Source of the DNA: an uncultured cyanobacterium
GTDB taxonomy: Bacteria > Cyanobacteriota > Cyanobacteriia > CACIAM-69d
NCBI GenBank assembly: GCA_937883785.1
Contig: CALGDE010000062.1
Span: forward strand, 1 to 35,356
Direction: 5' to 3'
Length of the DNA: 35,356 nt
The position numbers were made by a program, and so were the translations under genes. Position 1 is the first letter of the stretch; each line of letters begins with the position of its first letter. The notes beneath the pieces were generated by a model. It did not search any database. It was not told where the DNA came from and was given only the letters and a program-made list of their open reading frames with translations. Positions 17,200-24,222 of this stretch are shown piece by piece.

Positions 17200-17235
17200 A
17201 GGGCGTACCGATTTGCCGGTGCGTCCTATTTTTTA
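17200..17235 (+). terminator. Rho-independent terminator of sodA
   Basis: An 11-base stem AGGGCGTACCG (17200-17210) pairs with CGGTGCGTCCT (17217-17227) using two G-U pairs, with a 6-base loop, followed by ATTTTTTAT. It overlaps the last codons of the convergent nuclease-like gene, whose stop is at 17226-17228. Confidence 0.75.
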
Positions 17236-17915
17236 TCCTGGGTTTCTGTGTGGTTTTCGTGGAAATCTTTTCGGATGGCGATCGCTACTTTCAACATTTC
17301 CTCAGCCTCTTTGGGACGCATCAGATTCAATAGCGGAAATTCACGATATAGCCCTGGCTGCACTAGAACGAACTGATAGATGCTGCCGTTGGTAACCAAG
17401 CCCCACACTGACTTCTGACTGTTTAAAAACGAAGCGACATAAGTCAAAAGCTGAGGCATGCCTACTGAAACATCTACCGTGCTGTTTTTGCTTTCAATCA
17501 CCAAGATGCACAGAGAGGAGCGACCCTCGTCCCATTCTTGGGCAATCATCACGTCCATGCGCCCACGAATCACCGTGTCACCATCATCAACGGTGATTTC
17601 CTCAATTCTCTTTTCGATATTGACGGTCAGGTTAGGATCGATAGTGTAGCCACTAGCCCACAAAATCGGCGCAATTGCCAGAAAACCCACTTGTCCCTCT
17701 GACACTTTCCCTGCAACAACATTGCCCCAGCCTTGGCGCACTTCTTCCAGGCGATCGCGCTGTGCTTGAGTCAGTGATGACAGTGTTAGGAAATTGCTGA
17801 AGTCATCTTCGATTTGCTGGTTGAGTTTCAGTTGCTCACGAGCCGTTTTCAGTGTGAGAGAGCTGGCGTCAAAAGTTGGACCATCGTTGTTACTGGGGGC
17901 CGTGGTTCTTTCCAT
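17226..17915 (-). CDS. Stand-alone PD-(D/E)XK nuclease-like protein (type I restriction HsdR N-terminal-like)
   Basis: A 229-residue soluble protein. The central segment has the layout of the PD-(D/E)XK nuclease core: RGRMDVMIAQEW (catalytic Asp), then a hydrophobic strand with ESK (LCILVIESKNSTVDVSVGMPQLLTYV), and a following helix. Small proteins of this kind are common in cyanobacteria, usually annotated as restriction-endonuclease subunit R or HsdR-N-like proteins, and mostly lack helicase or specificity partners. The N-terminal about 60 residues look helical. The gene is divergent from the ATPase-TPR pair, with starts 68 bases apart, so a shared control region is likely. Whether it cuts DNA is not known. 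ATG at 17915. Confidence 0.75.
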   Translation of the reverse strand: MERTTAPSNNDGPTFDASSLTLKTAREQLKLNQQIEDDFSNFLTLSSLTQAQRDRLEEVRQGWGNVVAGKVSEGQVGFLAIAPILWASGYTIDPNLTVNIEKRIEEITVDDGDTVIRGRMDVMIAQEWDEGRSSLCILVIESKNSTVDVSVGMPQLLTYVASFLNSQKSVWGLVTNGSIYQFVLVQPGLYREFPLLNLMRPKEAEEMLKVAIAIRKDFHENHTETQDKK

Positions 17916-17983
17916 TTTAGATGCCGCAAGTTTGGGTGTTGTAAATTGGGGGCAGGTTTTATGTGGTGGTGTGACAGCAACTG

Positions 17984-19375
17984 ATGGCTAATAGTCCCTT
18001 TCCTGCCAATTTCGACCCGAGCGGTGGCATTACGGGTATCTACAATGCGTTTGAACCGTCGGAAACGGCGCGGGATGAGGTTTATGTGGATTTGGAGGAT
18101 GTGCGCGGGGGCTGGAATATCGTTCGGGAAGTTGGGCGGCGGATTGAGCGATCGCAGGGCCCCACCCATCAGCTCTACAGCGGGCATCGGGGGGTGGGGA
18201 AGTCCACGGAGCTGTTGCGATTGAAGGCGCATTTGGAAGAGCAAGGCTTTCTTGTGGTGTATTTTGCGGCGGACCAAGCTGATTTGGAGCCGGAAGATGT
18301 GAGCTATGCCGATGTGTTGTTGGCTTGTACGCGGAACTTGGTGAAGACGGTGAGGTTGGAGAAGGATAGCCGAAACCCAATTTTGGAATGGTTGTCCAAT
18401 CGCTGGGGAGATTTTAAGAATTTAGCGACGGATTTAGTAGACACGAAGGTGAAATTTGATTCGTTGTCGGTGGAGCAGCAAATTTTGCAGTTTACGAAGC
18501 TGACGGCAAATTTAAGAGCAGTGCCGTCGATTCGGCAAAAAGTGCGACAAGCGGTAGATGAGAACACGGTGTCGTTGGTGGAGGCAGTTAATGAATTTAT
18601 CGAAAAGGCTGCTGAACAAATTGCTGCTCAAGGCAAACGCGGCATTGTGGTGATGGCGGATAATTTGGATCGGATTACGTTGATTCAGCGGGAAGGGAGA
18701 CGCAGCAATCATGAGGAAATTTATTTAGACCGCTGCGAGCAGATGAAGGGGTTGGCGTGTCACATGATCTACACGGTGCCCATGTCGTTGGTGTGTGGGC
18801 GAGGGATGGAGGTGGAAAGTCGCTATGGCGATCGTGACATCCTACCGATGGTGGTGATGCAAAATCGCGATGGGTCGCCGAATCTGGATGGGGTGGCGGC
18901 GTTTCGGAAGGTGCTCCGGCGGCGGGTGGCGGCGGTAAATGAGGAGTTCGCGGATAATCTGGGGTCGCGGGTATTTGAGAGCGAGGAGTTGGTGGACCGG
19001 CTGTGTATTATGAGCGGCGGTCACATGAGAATTTTGATGCAGATGGTGCAGAAGGCGGTGGATTGGACGGACGCGTTGCCCATTCGCAAGCGGGCGGTGG
19101 GGCGGGCGGTTAGCTCCATCCGCGAAACCTATGTGGATGCGATTAATGGGGAAGATTGGGAGTTGCTGGCGCGGGTGCATCTGGCGAAGACCTTTGTGAA
19201 TGATGCTCGCCATGACCGGTTAGTGGGAGACCGCTGTATTTTGCAGTATTGCGAGGAGGTGGAAGATGAGGACGGAGAGGTGACAGTGGAGAAGTGGGCG
19301 GATGTGCATCCGACGATTTTGAAGATTGATGGGTTTCAGCGGGCATTGGAGCACGTCAAAGGAGAGGGGGCATGA
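17984..19375 (+). CDS. P-loop (AAA/STAND-like) ATPase, first gene of an ATPase-TPR pair
   Basis: A 463-residue protein with Walker A GHRGVGKST (67-75) and a Walker B-like strand GIVVMADNLDR (220-230, Asp226). A following strand MIYTVPMSL (261-269) and SGGHMRIL (344-351) look like sensor elements. Residues 15-60 form a conserved-looking prefix (GIYNAFEPSETARDEVYVDLEDVRGGW). The C-terminal about 70 residues look like a winged-helix region, including DRCILQYCEEVEDEDGEV. It resembles ATPases that occur next to TPR genes in cyanobacteria. The stop overlaps the start of the TPR gene by four bases (ATGA), so translation is coupled and the two probably act together. The sense strand is strongly G-rich. 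Function unknown; a sensing or defence switch is inferred. Confidence 0.78.
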   Translation: MANSPFPANFDPSGGITGIYNAFEPSETARDEVYVDLEDVRGGWNIVREVGRRIERSQGPTHQLYSGHRGVGKSTELLRLKAHLEEQGFLVVYFAADQADLEPEDVSYADVLLACTRNLVKTVRLEKDSRNPILEWLSNRWGDFKNLATDLVDTKVKFDSLSVEQQILQFTKLTANLRAVPSIRQKVRQAVDENTVSLVEAVNEFIEKAAEQIAAQGKRGIVVMADNLDRITLIQREGRRSNHEEIYLDRCEQMKGLACHMIYTVPMSLVCGRGMEVESRYGDRDILPMVVMQNRDGSPNLDGVAAFRKVLRRRVAAVNEEFADNLGSRVFESEELVDRLCIMSGGHMRILMQMVQKAVDWTDALPIRKRAVGRAVSSIRETYVDAINGEDWELLARVHLAKTFVNDARHDRLVGDRCILQYCEEVEDEDGEVTVEKWADVHPTILKIDGFQRALEHVKGEGA

Positions 19376-21111
19376 TGCCGAATTCTCAGGATTTAAGTTG
19401 GTTAGTGGATGAGGATTGGGATGATGCTGACGGCCCATCAGCAGAGGAAACTTATCAGGCATTGCGGCGATCAGTGGAGCGGACGACGGGGTTTGGGCTG
19501 AAGTTTGTGCAGTGTACTCCGGCAGCGGGGGCGAAATTGCGGGAGAGGTTGCGGCAGGATTTTGCGGGCAAGAGGGTGGTGCAGACCCTGGATTTGGTCC
19601 AGCCGGAACACAAGCTGTTCGATTTGATTGAGTCGCAGATTAAGGCAGGGGGGCAGCCCGATGTGTTGTGTGTGGTGGGGTTGGAATATTCATTGGTGGA
19701 CGATATTGAGCCGGGGGATGGGGGCGGTCAGGGGGATTATTACAACCCCGGCACCACCCCGCGAATTTTGGCTCACCTAAACCAAAATCGAGAAAAATTC
19801 CGCGATTCGTTTCCATTCGTCACCATCTTTTTTCTGCCTAAATTTGCCCAAAAATATTTCACTCGCCGCGCCTCCGATTTTGTGGATTGGGGGTCTGGCA
19901 TTTTTGAACTCAGGACAGAGATCAAAACAGTACTTGGACAGAATATGCGAATTCTGAATGGAATGACTGATCCTGATCGATATTCAGCGCTAACTTCAGA
20001 TGAGCGGCGTGAAAGGCGCATCAACTTACAGACTTGGATTGAAGAAACCAAAGAGTACGACAATCAGCTTCTGGTAGGACTGTTGATGGACCTGGGATCC
20101 TTATTTCTTGCTGATGAAAATTGTGAGGATGCGCTGCGCAGCCTCCAGAAAGCTTTAGACATTACACCTGACGATTACATAATACGATTCGCAGTAAGTG
20201 CACTTTTACATGAGCTGGGTGAATACAAAGGAGCGGTTGATGGTTACGATAAAGTTCTAAAGATCGACCCTAATCAATACGATGCATGGAGGCTTAGTGG
20301 TCTTGCGCTGGAAGAATTGGGGAAAGCGGAAAAAGCGCTTGATCGCTACGATCAAGCGCTAAAGGTAAACCCTGATTGGCATGAGATCCTAGGGTTATGC
20401 GGCATGGCTCTATGCAAGCTAGGTCGATATGAGGAAGCAATTTCTAAGTTCGCTCTATTTGTGGAAGCCGAGCCCAATAGTTATAGATTTTTAGGGGTGT
20501 ACGGTAGCGCTTTGTTTGAACTCGGACGTTACGAGGAAGCGATCAGCATTTACGACAAATTCATAAAGCTCAGCCCTGATACTTATGAACAGCTGGGGGT
20601 ATGGTGCCGAGCCGCTTCTTTGATGAATATAGGGCGGTATAAAGAAGCGATCATTGACTATGATCGGCTTCTAAAAACTCCACATAATGATCCAGAATTT
20701 AGACTCCCTACTGAGAGAGCATGGAAACAGCGTGGAATTGCTTTAGAGAACTTAGGGCTTAGTGAGGACGCGATCGCCAGCTATGAAAGAGCTATAGAAA
20801 TCAAACTCGATGACCATGAAGCTTGGACCAACCGGGGGATGGCTTTGGTTGACTTGGATCGGTTCGAGGATGCGATCGCCAGCTATGACAAAGCTCTAGA
20901 AATCAAACCCGATTACCATGACGCCTGGTACGACAAAGCCTGTTGTTATGGCTTACAGGGCAAAGCAGACTTAGCCATCGAAAACCTCGCCCGCGCCATT
21001 GATCTAAGCCCCAACGAATATCGCAAACTGGCAAAAACCGACACCGACTTCGACCCCATCCGCAGCGACCCACGCTTCCAAGCCCTCCTCAATCCCGATA
21101 TTTCGGAATAA
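19372..21111 (+). CDS. TPR protein with N-terminal alpha/beta domain, partner of the ATPase
   Basis: The 579-residue protein has an N-terminal alpha/beta domain (about 1-195) with no P-loop. It includes VQTLDLVQPEHKLFDLIESQI, DVLCVVGLEYSLVD and FPFVTIFFLPKFAQKYFTRRASDFVDWGSGIFEL, a pattern I recall from cyanobacterial TPR proteins paired with ATPases. About nine TPR units follow (about 235-555). The last ones are near copies: the DNA around 20768-20803 and 20873-20908 is nearly identical, a sign of recent repeat duplication. The C-terminus ends with the common TDFDPIRSDPRFQALL cap. Start ATG at 19372 overlaps the ATPase stop. The protein likely serves as scaffold or sensor for the ATPase. The repeat part is more AT-rich than the 5' third. 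Confidence 0.8.
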   Translation: MMPNSQDLSWLVDEDWDDADGPSAEETYQALRRSVERTTGFGLKFVQCTPAAGAKLRERLRQDFAGKRVVQTLDLVQPEHKLFDLIESQIKAGGQPDVLCVVGLEYSLVDDIEPGDGGGQGDYYNPGTTPRILAHLNQNREKFRDSFPFVTIFFLPKFAQKYFTRRASDFVDWGSGIFELRTEIKTVLGQNMRILNGMTDPDRYSALTSDERRERRINLQTWIEETKEYDNQLLVGLLMDLGSLFLADENCEDALRSLQKALDITPDDYIIRFAVSALLHELGEYKGAVDGYDKVLKIDPNQYDAWRLSGLALEELGKAEKALDRYDQALKVNPDWHEILGLCGMALCKLGRYEEAISKFALFVEAEPNSYRFLGVYGSALFELGRYEEAISIYDKFIKLSPDTYEQLGVWCRAASLMNIGRYKEAIIDYDRLLKTPHNDPEFRLPTERAWKQRGIALENLGLSEDAIASYERAIEIKLDDHEAWTNRGMALVDLDRFEDAIASYDKALEIKPDYHDAWYDKACCYGLQGKADLAIENLARAIDLSPNEYRKLAKTDTDFDPIRSDPRFQALLNPDISE

Positions 21112-21127: not shown

Positions 21128-21193
21128 ATGGTTGCCGTCAGAAACCACCTCAAAATGTCGCCAGAAGAATTCCTAACAGGAGAGAACACCTAA
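21128..21193 (+). pseudogene. Remnant of an Uma2-family (DUF820) nuclease gene
   Basis: Sixteen bases after the TPR gene an ATG opens a 21-codon frame reading MVAVRNHLKMSPEEFLTGEN and then stops. This matches the conserved beginning of Uma2-family PD-(D/E)XK proteins of cyanobacteria (MVAV...LTPEEYL...). Nothing of the catalytic part follows, so it is read as a truncated leftover. A chance match cannot be excluded because only about 20 residues can be compared. Confidence 0.45.
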
Positions 21194-22218: not shown

Positions 22219-23898
22219 CTAGAAATATCGTTCAACGTGCAACGGTTCGCTGGGGGATAGGCTACTGAGGCGATCACTCAAGTCTAGAGCTTTCTGAAGC
22301 TGCCCCCGCTGAAACGTACGACTCATCACCACATAAATCGACGTGCCATCAATACCCAGCTCAATCGCCTTCACGGATCGCCAATCGCCCCCTTGTAAGT
22401 CATCACTAATGCACCACTGCTCCCCTTCCCATTTGAGCTGGCGGGCGAATCTATAGGGCGTTTCCTGTTTACCCACAATTAGAATCTTTTGAAGCAAACT
22501 ACGAATTAAATTTGGAAAAAATCGCCCAAAAATATTCATCACAACCCGTAAGATAATCGATTTAGCGGTTGTCATTTGGGTCTGTTTTGCCCACCCTAAT
22601 TTCCCCTGAATTCCAATATGGTTGTCATCCACCGTAATGTCATAGTCATCCACCAAGTGCCCCACCGCATTCTTAGTCTTACCTGACTTTTTATCGTTCA
22701 CCAATAAAGAAAACTGAGTGTCTGAAGCAACCAGGAAATTATCGCGAAAAATCTTATAAACGCCCCCTTTATTTAGCGCCAGAATTAACGTAACCAGCTC
22801 CGGTTTATCATTAAGTTCTGACCAGCGTTTATCAATTAGAATCCGCGCATTGGGCAACCACGTTCGCCTCGGTTGCGGTTGGGGTACCGGGGGGCGATCG
22901 CCAGCAAAATCCTGCCAAGTCAGCAAATAATTCCACACATGATGACCCACAATATGGTCGTCGGCATAGCAAGCGCCCTGCCCCGCCAACAGTCCCGCCG
23001 CCACCTGATCGTTAATCGCCAGCGCCGCCGGATACCACCGCCCCACCAGCTCAAAGCCATGGGGAAAGAAATTGTACGTATTTCGGCTGGTGTACTCGCC
23101 GCCAAAGGAGCCATCAGGATGCACAAACAGCGCCGCCAAATCCACCGCTTTCACCAGCGCCTCCTTTAGTCGTGGGTCCGCCGCCTCCCGCTCCAGCCCC
23201 ATGGCGTAAATCCGAGCCAAACAGGACACCGTCAGCGTGTGATAGCCAGGGTCACAGCCCTCATACTCCTGGAACCAACCCTCTGAGTCCTGCCAGGACA
23301 GCACCGTTTCCAGCCGCTCAGCCTTTGCGCCATCCCAACGGCGACTCCCCGTCAACTGTCCCAGCCGCTCCAGCGCCAGCACAATCAACGCCTGGTGGTT
23401 AGTGAGCCGCCCGCTCTCCTGATGATGCGCCAACCAATCCGCCCGTCGCCCCATAAACTCCAGCAAATCCGACTCATTTAGCCCCAGCAGCTCGTAAGTT
23501 TCAATAAACGCCAGCAGGGAAAACGCCGCCGCGCCGCCCGCCCGCTCAAAGGGAAAATAATCGTCGCAGGAGCCGTCAGGATGGGAACTTTCCATGGCAT
23601 ATCGAATGCCTGCCGCGCCCCAAAGTTTGAGTTTTGGCTCCTGAAAATACGGATTTTCGGGACAGTCCAACGAATACGTCAGCGCCAGGGGCCACACAAA
23701 CTCCTGGCTCATGCCGCTGGGGAAATCAATAATTTTGTACTGCCAATAGTTGCGGTCAAAGCAGCCGTAGGTGGGACTGTGAGGATTGCGATCGCCCAGG
23801 GTCAGAATCTTTGGAATCTCTGCCAACGCCTTTTGGGCAAACACATTTCGCAGGGACTCTCGCCGGGAAGTATCAGTATTTGCGATCGCCGTGCCCAT
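22219..23898 (-). CDS. Conserved protein with an alpha/alpha-toroid-like N-terminal half, function unknown
   Basis: The ATG at 23898 gives 559 residues and follows a good GGAG site seven bases upstream; an in-frame TTG at 23931 is weaker. The first about 340 residues are helical with repeated aromatic/Gly/Asp motifs: TYGCFDRNYWQYK, SHPDGSCDDYFPFERAGGAAAF, SEGWFQEYEGCDPGYHTLT, HPDGSFGGEYTSRNTYNFFPHGF. This pattern suggests an alpha/alpha toroid, as in polysaccharide lyases, heparinase-type or terpenoid-cyclase-type proteins. The C-terminal about 200 residues look beta-rich with an amphipathic basic stretch (FGRFFPNLIRSLLQKIL), similar in layout to heparinase II/III-like proteins. No signal peptide is visible. 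Cotranscribed with the flippase-like gene. I do not recognise a specific activity. Confidence 0.65.
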   Translation of the reverse strand: MGTAIANTDTSRRESLRNVFAQKALAEIPKILTLGDRNPHSPTYGCFDRNYWQYKIIDFPSGMSQEFVWPLALTYSLDCPENPYFQEPKLKLWGAAGIRYAMESSHPDGSCDDYFPFERAGGAAAFSLLAFIETYELLGLNESDLLEFMGRRADWLAHHQESGRLTNHQALIVLALERLGQLTGSRRWDGAKAERLETVLSWQDSEGWFQEYEGCDPGYHTLTVSCLARIYAMGLEREAADPRLKEALVKAVDLAALFVHPDGSFGGEYTSRNTYNFFPHGFELVGRWYPAALAINDQVAAGLLAGQGACYADDHIVGHHVWNYLLTWQDFAGDRPPVPQPQPRRTWLPNARILIDKRWSELNDKPELVTLILALNKGGVYKIFRDNFLVASDTQFSLLVNDKKSGKTKNAVGHLVDDYDITVDDNHIGIQGKLGWAKQTQMTTAKSIILRVVMNIFGRFFPNLIRSLLQKILIVGKQETPYRFARQLKWEGEQWCISDDLQGGDWRSVKAIELGIDGTSIYVVMSRTFQRGQLQKALDLSDRLSSLSPSEPLHVERYF

Positions 23899-24222
23899 TT
23901 CATCTCCGGTGGTGTCTTCCCAACGTTTCAAGGCTCGATTTTACCAGGGGCCGGCGATCGCACCTTTAAGCTCACCGTTTGGTTAAGTCGCTGACATTGC
24001 GCTGATATTGCTGTGGAGAGGAAAAAGCGTCAAGAAAGTACGCAAAGAAGCACTAAATGACAGATACCCATAACACCCTAGTGACACCGTCAAAATTTTG
24101 TTAACTTAGGACCATCTTGCCTAGTGCCAGAGCAAGTTTGAGCGTATTCCAAGCCGTTTTCATAAACACCTTAGACAGCGCCAAACACTAGGAGTGAACG
24201 AAGACCAAAGAAAGAGACACTT
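23899..24222. other. Divergent intergenic region
   Basis: The starts of the toroid-like gene (minus) and the secreted-protein gene (plus) lie at its two ends, so it should hold promoters for both. The right half is AT-rich. No clear -10/-35 pair, operator palindrome or small gene could be assigned. Confidence 0.5.

Follow-up and report, generated by a model that had tools for sequence, protein, structure and literature searches.

Among the described prokaryotic systems, the nSTAND2 gene pair appears conceptually closest to the pair of genes reported here, and by analogy the two may follow the same logic. In nSTAND2, adjacent genes encode an active and an eroded AAA+/STAND NTPase, the eroded one being fused to a variable module that is mostly GT4 or HEPN; a hetero-oligomer with an arginine finger and a counter-invader role are both predicted (Kaur et al. 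2021, PMC8195603). The iSTAND and iSTAND2 systems, which are enriched in multicellular bacteria including cyanobacteria, are ternary, with a MoxR AAA+ protein and a vWA protein as their defining parts (Kaur et al. 2020, PMC7159879; Kaur et al. 2021, PMC8195603). The 2021 paper also names an Npun2340/2341 family of STAND NTPases, which originates from Leipe et al. 2004. A literature search for the present pair by its architecture returned general conflict-system papers only.

The window, i.e., the whole stretch of 35,356 nucleotides from an uncultured cyanobacterium that was analyzed, contains the pair on the forward strand. The first gene (positions 17984-19375) encodes a 463-residue AAA+ ATPase resembling the AAA_16/ORC-STAND type, and the second (19372-21111) encodes a 579-residue partner protein; the stop codon of the former and the start codon of the latter overlap by four nucleotides (ATGA, 19372-19375). 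A 229-residue HsdR_N/PD-(D/E)XK-like protein is encoded on the reverse strand (17226-17915), and a spacer of 68 bases (17916-17983) separates it from the ATPase gene. The original prediction had described this anatomy, namely the three open reading frames with their coordinates, the divergent layout, the spacer, the Walker A motif of the ATPase and the stop/start overlap, and every part of it was verified. Its description of the second product as a TPR protein was correct for the array of about 8-9 repeats (20089-21051, approximate limits), while residues 1-230 are not TPR; residues 13-232 (19408-20067) form a separate N-domain with a degenerate, AAA+-like alpha/beta fold according to the structural model. 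The other neighbors of the pair in the window are genes for CobN, a superoxide dismutase and a flippase-like protein.

Compared by description (no nSTAND2 match was found in the sequence libraries searched), the pair resembles nSTAND2 in that the genes are adjacent and one product lacks both Walker motifs, and differs from it in its modules, which are TPR arrays, nSTAND1-WD40 or NACHT-HEAT regions, together with a TIR domain on a second ATPase. Neither GT4 nor HEPN was seen in the partners examined by Pfam (window and distant-group partners), by a TPR-coverage scan (all partners) or by eye (L057), a survey that covered the partners apart from several long C-termini. The likeness to iSTAND and iSTAND2 lies in a core domain of apparent STAND type that is catalytically dead and carries variable fused modules, but neither a MoxR AAA+ gene nor a vWA gene adjoins the pair in the window. 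The N-domain model also matches ORC- and RFC-type folds; in contrast to ORC and the clamp loaders, however, the pair has no DNA replication context, and its repeat array is located on the dead subunit. Compared by name alone, Npun2340/2341 looks like two adjacent genes of Nostoc punctiforme and might be the family of the pair or a neighbor of it, which suggests that the pair may already be named.

The coupling of the ATPase to the TPR protein, which had been proposed from the window alone, proved to be general. Of the 77 loci whose ATPase gene is intact, at least 72 have the partner directly after it, as 70 single pairs and two double loci, and an ATGA-type overlap of four nucleotides occurs in 21 of the 70 single pairs. 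In one further locus (L059) the partner lies upstream of the ATPase, and in three (L111, L113 and L121) an intact ATPase has no partner detectable by the profiles used. The sequences of the two proteins also co-diverge. The distance matrices of the ATPases and the N-domains were correlated with a Mantel r of 0.90 for all pairs, 0.85 for the close group and 0.89 for the distant group, values to which species relatedness adds, and none of 2000 permutations reached the r of 0.90 for all pairs or that of 0.85 for the close group. Where one genome contains paralogous pairs, each ATPase retains its own partner type. The ATPase and its partner are thus a true unit and a near-obligate pair. As a separate observation, an N-domain protein lies upstream of the ATPase in L059, L060, L064, L067, L069, L070 and L074; in five of these (L064, L067, L069, L070 and L074) the partner encoded downstream is a short protein (177-212 residues) made up of the N-domain only, an arrangement that suggests duplication or tandem pairs.

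The nucleotide motifs of the ATPase are intact. Its Walker A motif, GHRGVGKST (residues 67-75; 18182-18208), has G67, G70, G72, K73, S74 and T75 invariant in 35 of 35 sequences, and the Walker B core, MADNLDR (residues 224-230; 18653-18673), is equally invariant at D226-N227-L228-D229. A sensor-1 region (YTVP) and a sensor-2-like GGHxR motif are likewise intact. As regards membership of the STAND class, both Walker motifs are present, and the GGHxR motif, to judge from the sequences, resembles ORC more than it does the GxP motif of STAND proteins. The window ATPase falls just below the Pfam cutoff for AAA_16, which 33 of the 35 close relatives match at E ≤ 1e-3. A PDB sequence search yielded a weak P-loop match only, and a structure prediction built on two sequences reached a pLDDT of 36.7. 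The source genome has five full-length copies of the ATPase gene and one fragment. Comparison with the defense systems of PADLOC (2023 PADLOC-DB), as the original prediction had proposed, produced no system protein that matched over most of its length; scanning the pair gave only weak partial matches of ATPase, TIR or TPR type (PDC-S20, E 7.7e-5). In another locus, an ATPase has an N-terminal extension of about 240 residues (L113 7585-9609); its first Pfam match lies no earlier than residue 281, and the search for an N-domain partner there was negative.

The N-domain (residues 1-230 of the partner) matched no Pfam or NCBIfam family, and a PDB sequence search gave no significant match. The N-domains of the close and distant groups are homologous (hhalign 99%), the homology in the distant group lying in the first 200 residues of proteins of 930-1844 residues that are encoded downstream of distant ATPase paralogues. 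An AlphaFold model, built from four sequences only, had a pLDDT of 64.8 with a core of 70-90 and showed a five-stranded alpha/beta domain in the order b1-a1-b2-a2-b3-a3-b4-a4-b5. The first rows of a Foldseek search with this model were mainly AAA+ proteins, the best E being 3.6e-3 and none below 1e-3. In a second structural comparison, all 50 listed rows were AAA+ proteins (TnsC, ORC, NSF, RFC and VCP) with a best Z of 8.3, where Z of 7-8 is common and families absent from the listed matches were not counted as excluded. With respect to the STAND fold of nSTAND2, the evidence consists of AAA_16 matches for the ATPase and, for the N-domain, of AAA+ folds with a Z no higher than 8.3. The nucleotide motifs are missing from the N-domain alignments: the P-loop position reads CTPAAGAK (C-x-P-x-x-G/A in the family) with no GxxxxGKS/T, and the Walker B position reads VVGLE (h-h-G-L-E in the family) with no DD or DE. 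These data are suggestive of an AAA+ fold that is catalytically dead. Homology of the N-domain to the ATPase itself was also considered and was not supported, as a comparison of the two profiles detected no similarity.

The N-domain has an invariant motif, R-A-x-D-F-x-D-W, which reads R166-A-S-D-F-V-D-W173 in the window (19867-19890). R166, D169, F170, D172 and W173, together with N137, are identical in 38 of 38 members of the close group that are paired with an ATPase. R166 is placed by the model at the end of the helix preceding the last strand of the domain, in a region (residues 166-176) where pLDDT is below 50. AAA+ proteins carry their arginine finger at this very place, the end of the helix before the last strand (box VII). 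Of 16 members of the distant group, 14 have the arginine one column earlier, and the exact geometry of the finger may differ there. We also found orphan N-domain-TPR proteins in three genomes, all of another family, with no ATPase gene nearby (L142 5603-7168, L143 4464-5993 and L144 4615-6189). In these three orphans, R166 is replaced by D, S and S, W173 by D, D and F, and N137 by S, I and S, and the residues of the fold are kept. The erosion of the motif where the ATPase has been lost points to the motif as a contact with the ATPase, and R166 would most likely supply an arginine finger to the ATPase in trans, as far as the model can tell.

The N-domain might instead serve chiefly as a nucleic-acid receptor within the same switch, with no part as finger donor. 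Retained nucleic-acid binding has been proposed for inactive STAND domains (PMC8195603), and several of the best fold matches of the N-domain are DNA-bound AAA+ proteins (TnsC and ORC), but the invariant residues gather ahead of the last strand and have disappeared from proteins that lack an ATPase, as would be expected of an ATPase interface; we regard this explanation as rather improbable. The orphan N-domain proteins are encoded beside a hybrid histidine kinase of Cache-PAS type, which was scanned in two of the three loci. In L142, a weak PADLOC match to a Shedu-like (DUF4263) effector (E 9.6e-7, residues 996-1058) was rejected because the matched stretch is the receiver domain of the hybrid histidine kinase according to Pfam.

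Our preferred explanation, in which R166 acts as a donated finger, divides a single nucleotide-driven switch between the ATPase and its partner. The product of the first gene would be the sole subunit able to bind and hydrolyze ATP, and the dead AAA+-type domain of the partner would dock on it, most likely giving R166 in trans. In ORC and the clamp loaders, active AAA+ subunits receive an arginine finger from inactive ones. The C-terminal repeats of the partner (TPR in the window, nSTAND1-WD40 or NACHT-HEAT in relatives) would act as sensor or scaffold, so that a ligand on the repeats would alter the hetero-oligomer as well as its ATP state, triggering an output. We consider such a split ATP-dependent switch, consisting of an active ATPase, a dead subunit that controls it or completes its active site, and a sensing or scaffolding repeat array, to be probable. 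If this is true, NLR-like switching can be divided over two proteins, one that burns ATP and one that senses and exerts control through a dead ATPase domain. It would also provide a function-bearing reading for a domain that neither Pfam nor NCBIfam contains and that was found in 62 of 373 sampled cyanobacterial genomes, or about one in six.

Two double loci bear on the stoichiometry of the proposed switch. In L107 and on a Calothrix plasmid (L122), two ATPase genes share an operon with a single partner whose N-domain is present twice in tandem, which fits one ATPase per N-domain; these loci and R166 offer direct, testable predictions. The second ATPase in each carries a C-terminal TIR domain (L107 4735-6825, Pfam E 1.2e-31; L122 9342-11435, E 1.5e-33). 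The TIR-fused form is rare, being present in one of 373 genomes and on one plasmid, and the fusion links the family with an established immune effector. More tentatively, at somewhat under an even chance, the pairs may constitute an unnamed family of split AAA+/STAND receptors, that is, an NLR-like two-protein sensor with a dead finger donor, fast-changing repeats, a stoichiometry visible in the genome and, in some members, a TIR effector. The TIR-fused ATPase of L107 has an extra C-terminal region that resembles an effector-associated domain by eye.

The C-terminal modules of the partners are variable. TPR-type partners contain from about 3 to 24 repeats. Three genomes of one genus share a syntenic hflX-grx-gshB locus at which ATPase identity is 97-98% while the partners have 24, 15 and 6 TPRs. 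The array of L081 consists of 24 copies of a 102-bp unit with 86% match; Tandem Repeats Finder (TRF) detected no recent repeat duplication in the window array. The distant-group partners, where scanned, have nSTAND1 and mostly WD40 domains. One 1637-residue partner of the close group (L057 1669-6582) has TPRs followed, by eye, by a NACHT-like NTPase and HEAT-like repeats. No effector domain is encoded in the TPR-only form.

The original prediction had joined the divergent PD-(D/E)XK-like gene to the pair as a possible three-part sensing or defense module; in the corresponding rival explanation, the nuclease would act as the effector of one defense system. The identity of the gene was borne out by a PADLOC PD_DExK match (E 2.3e-6) and by the intact D (RMD), E-S-K and Q motifs in an alignment with the six paralogues from the source genome; a Pfam HSDR_N match was weak and below the cutoff (E 0.052). 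The position of the gene 68 bases from the ATPase and its intact catalytic motifs are compatible with an effector role, and the TPR-only form, having no effector of its own, could use a local effector in the source genome alone. However, about 60 ATPase loci were sampled together with flanks of up to about 9 kb either way, and among them the ATPase-partner loci of other genomes showed no nuclease relative, either with tblastn (E ≤ 1e-3) or with a profile built from all seven copies of the nuclease, for which the best unrelated match had an E of 0.31. The neighborhoods fetched for the other full-length ATPase copies of the source genome were likewise negative in both searches, the exceptions in the whole search being the window itself and the regions fetched for their nuclease paralogues. 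In this co-occurrence check, set beforehand as the one that could refute the module, the ATPase and its partner were kept together elsewhere and the nuclease was absent nearby. By sequence, the gene groups with the solitary HsdR_N-type nucleases that are widespread among cyanobacteria, a family not linked to the ATPase pair; it has six further matches elsewhere in the source genome, and its plasmid members carry the annotation of a solitary protein resembling the R subunit of type I restriction enzymes. A sister species of the same genus (flippase protein 95% identical) gave neither a close ATPase nor a nuclease-family match at the thresholds used, in a genome 93% complete and in 730 contigs; its DNA similarity to the window extends no further than the border of the flippase gene (window 21245), and different genes lie on the TPR side beyond it. 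Because no relatives were found at the other ATPase loci sampled, the nuclease was rejected as the effector and is taken as a bystander, a chance neighbor of the ATPase on the sequence comparisons made, and a defense system comprising all three proteins is very improbable.

The claim of a conflict or sensing role lost its nuclease link and gained indirect support from the TIR-fused paralogues, the nSTAND1 and NACHT fusions and a conjugative plasmid of Acaryochloris (L119), on which an ATPase-WD40 pair lies behind CHAT, NB-ARC and TIR genes. By association, an immune or self/non-self role seems likely, with a chance of about one half. The other explanation is that the pair serves large-genome cyanobacteria as a resident ATPase for regulation or assembly, chaperone-like or as a signaling scaffold, and plays no part in conflict. 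Consistent with this, the pair stably adjoins hflX-grx-gshB in a large number of genomes belonging to one family (f7), unlike a mobile defense gene, all ATPase-positive genomes are of 3.8 Mb or more, and the orphan partner adjoins a hybrid histidine kinase in one lineage. On the other hand, the spread is patchy, with 84 of 386 cyanobacterial genomes positive for the ATPase query (E ≤ 1e-10) and often several copies in each; copies occur on plasmids, and decayed ATPases lie beside partners in L145, L146, L148, L154 and L155, some at contig ends, where a few may be assembly cuts. The domain fusions, the plasmid neighborhood in L119 and the rapid change in TPR number also argue against this explanation, which we hold to be unlikely, though less so than a nucleic-acid receptor. 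If the split switch is correct, the pair would be a candidate resident immune locus with quickly changing repeat arrays.

A phage origin was considered and rejected, as neither the ATPase nor the N-domain had a match in 50,697 phage records. Viral contigs gave two N-domain matches only, one without an ATPase and one a fragment at a contig edge near a terminase-like gene. The latter is a cut-off N-domain gene on an IMG/VR contig (L118 1-375) that also carries the terminase-like gene, and possibly reflects a prophage inserted in or beside a partner gene.

Beyond the pair, the "Uma2 fragment" of the original prediction exists as a 21-residue open reading frame (21128-21193) that resembles the start of an Uma2-type protein; it has no Pfam match and is too short for Uma2 to be confirmed. 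In the sister species, the corresponding side of the flippase gene has a 104-residue frame that is Uma2-like by eye (L134 945-1259). The window also encodes a 570-residue protein (22219-23931) that has no NCBIfam match and adjoins the flippase-like gene in L134, L136, L137, L140 and L141.
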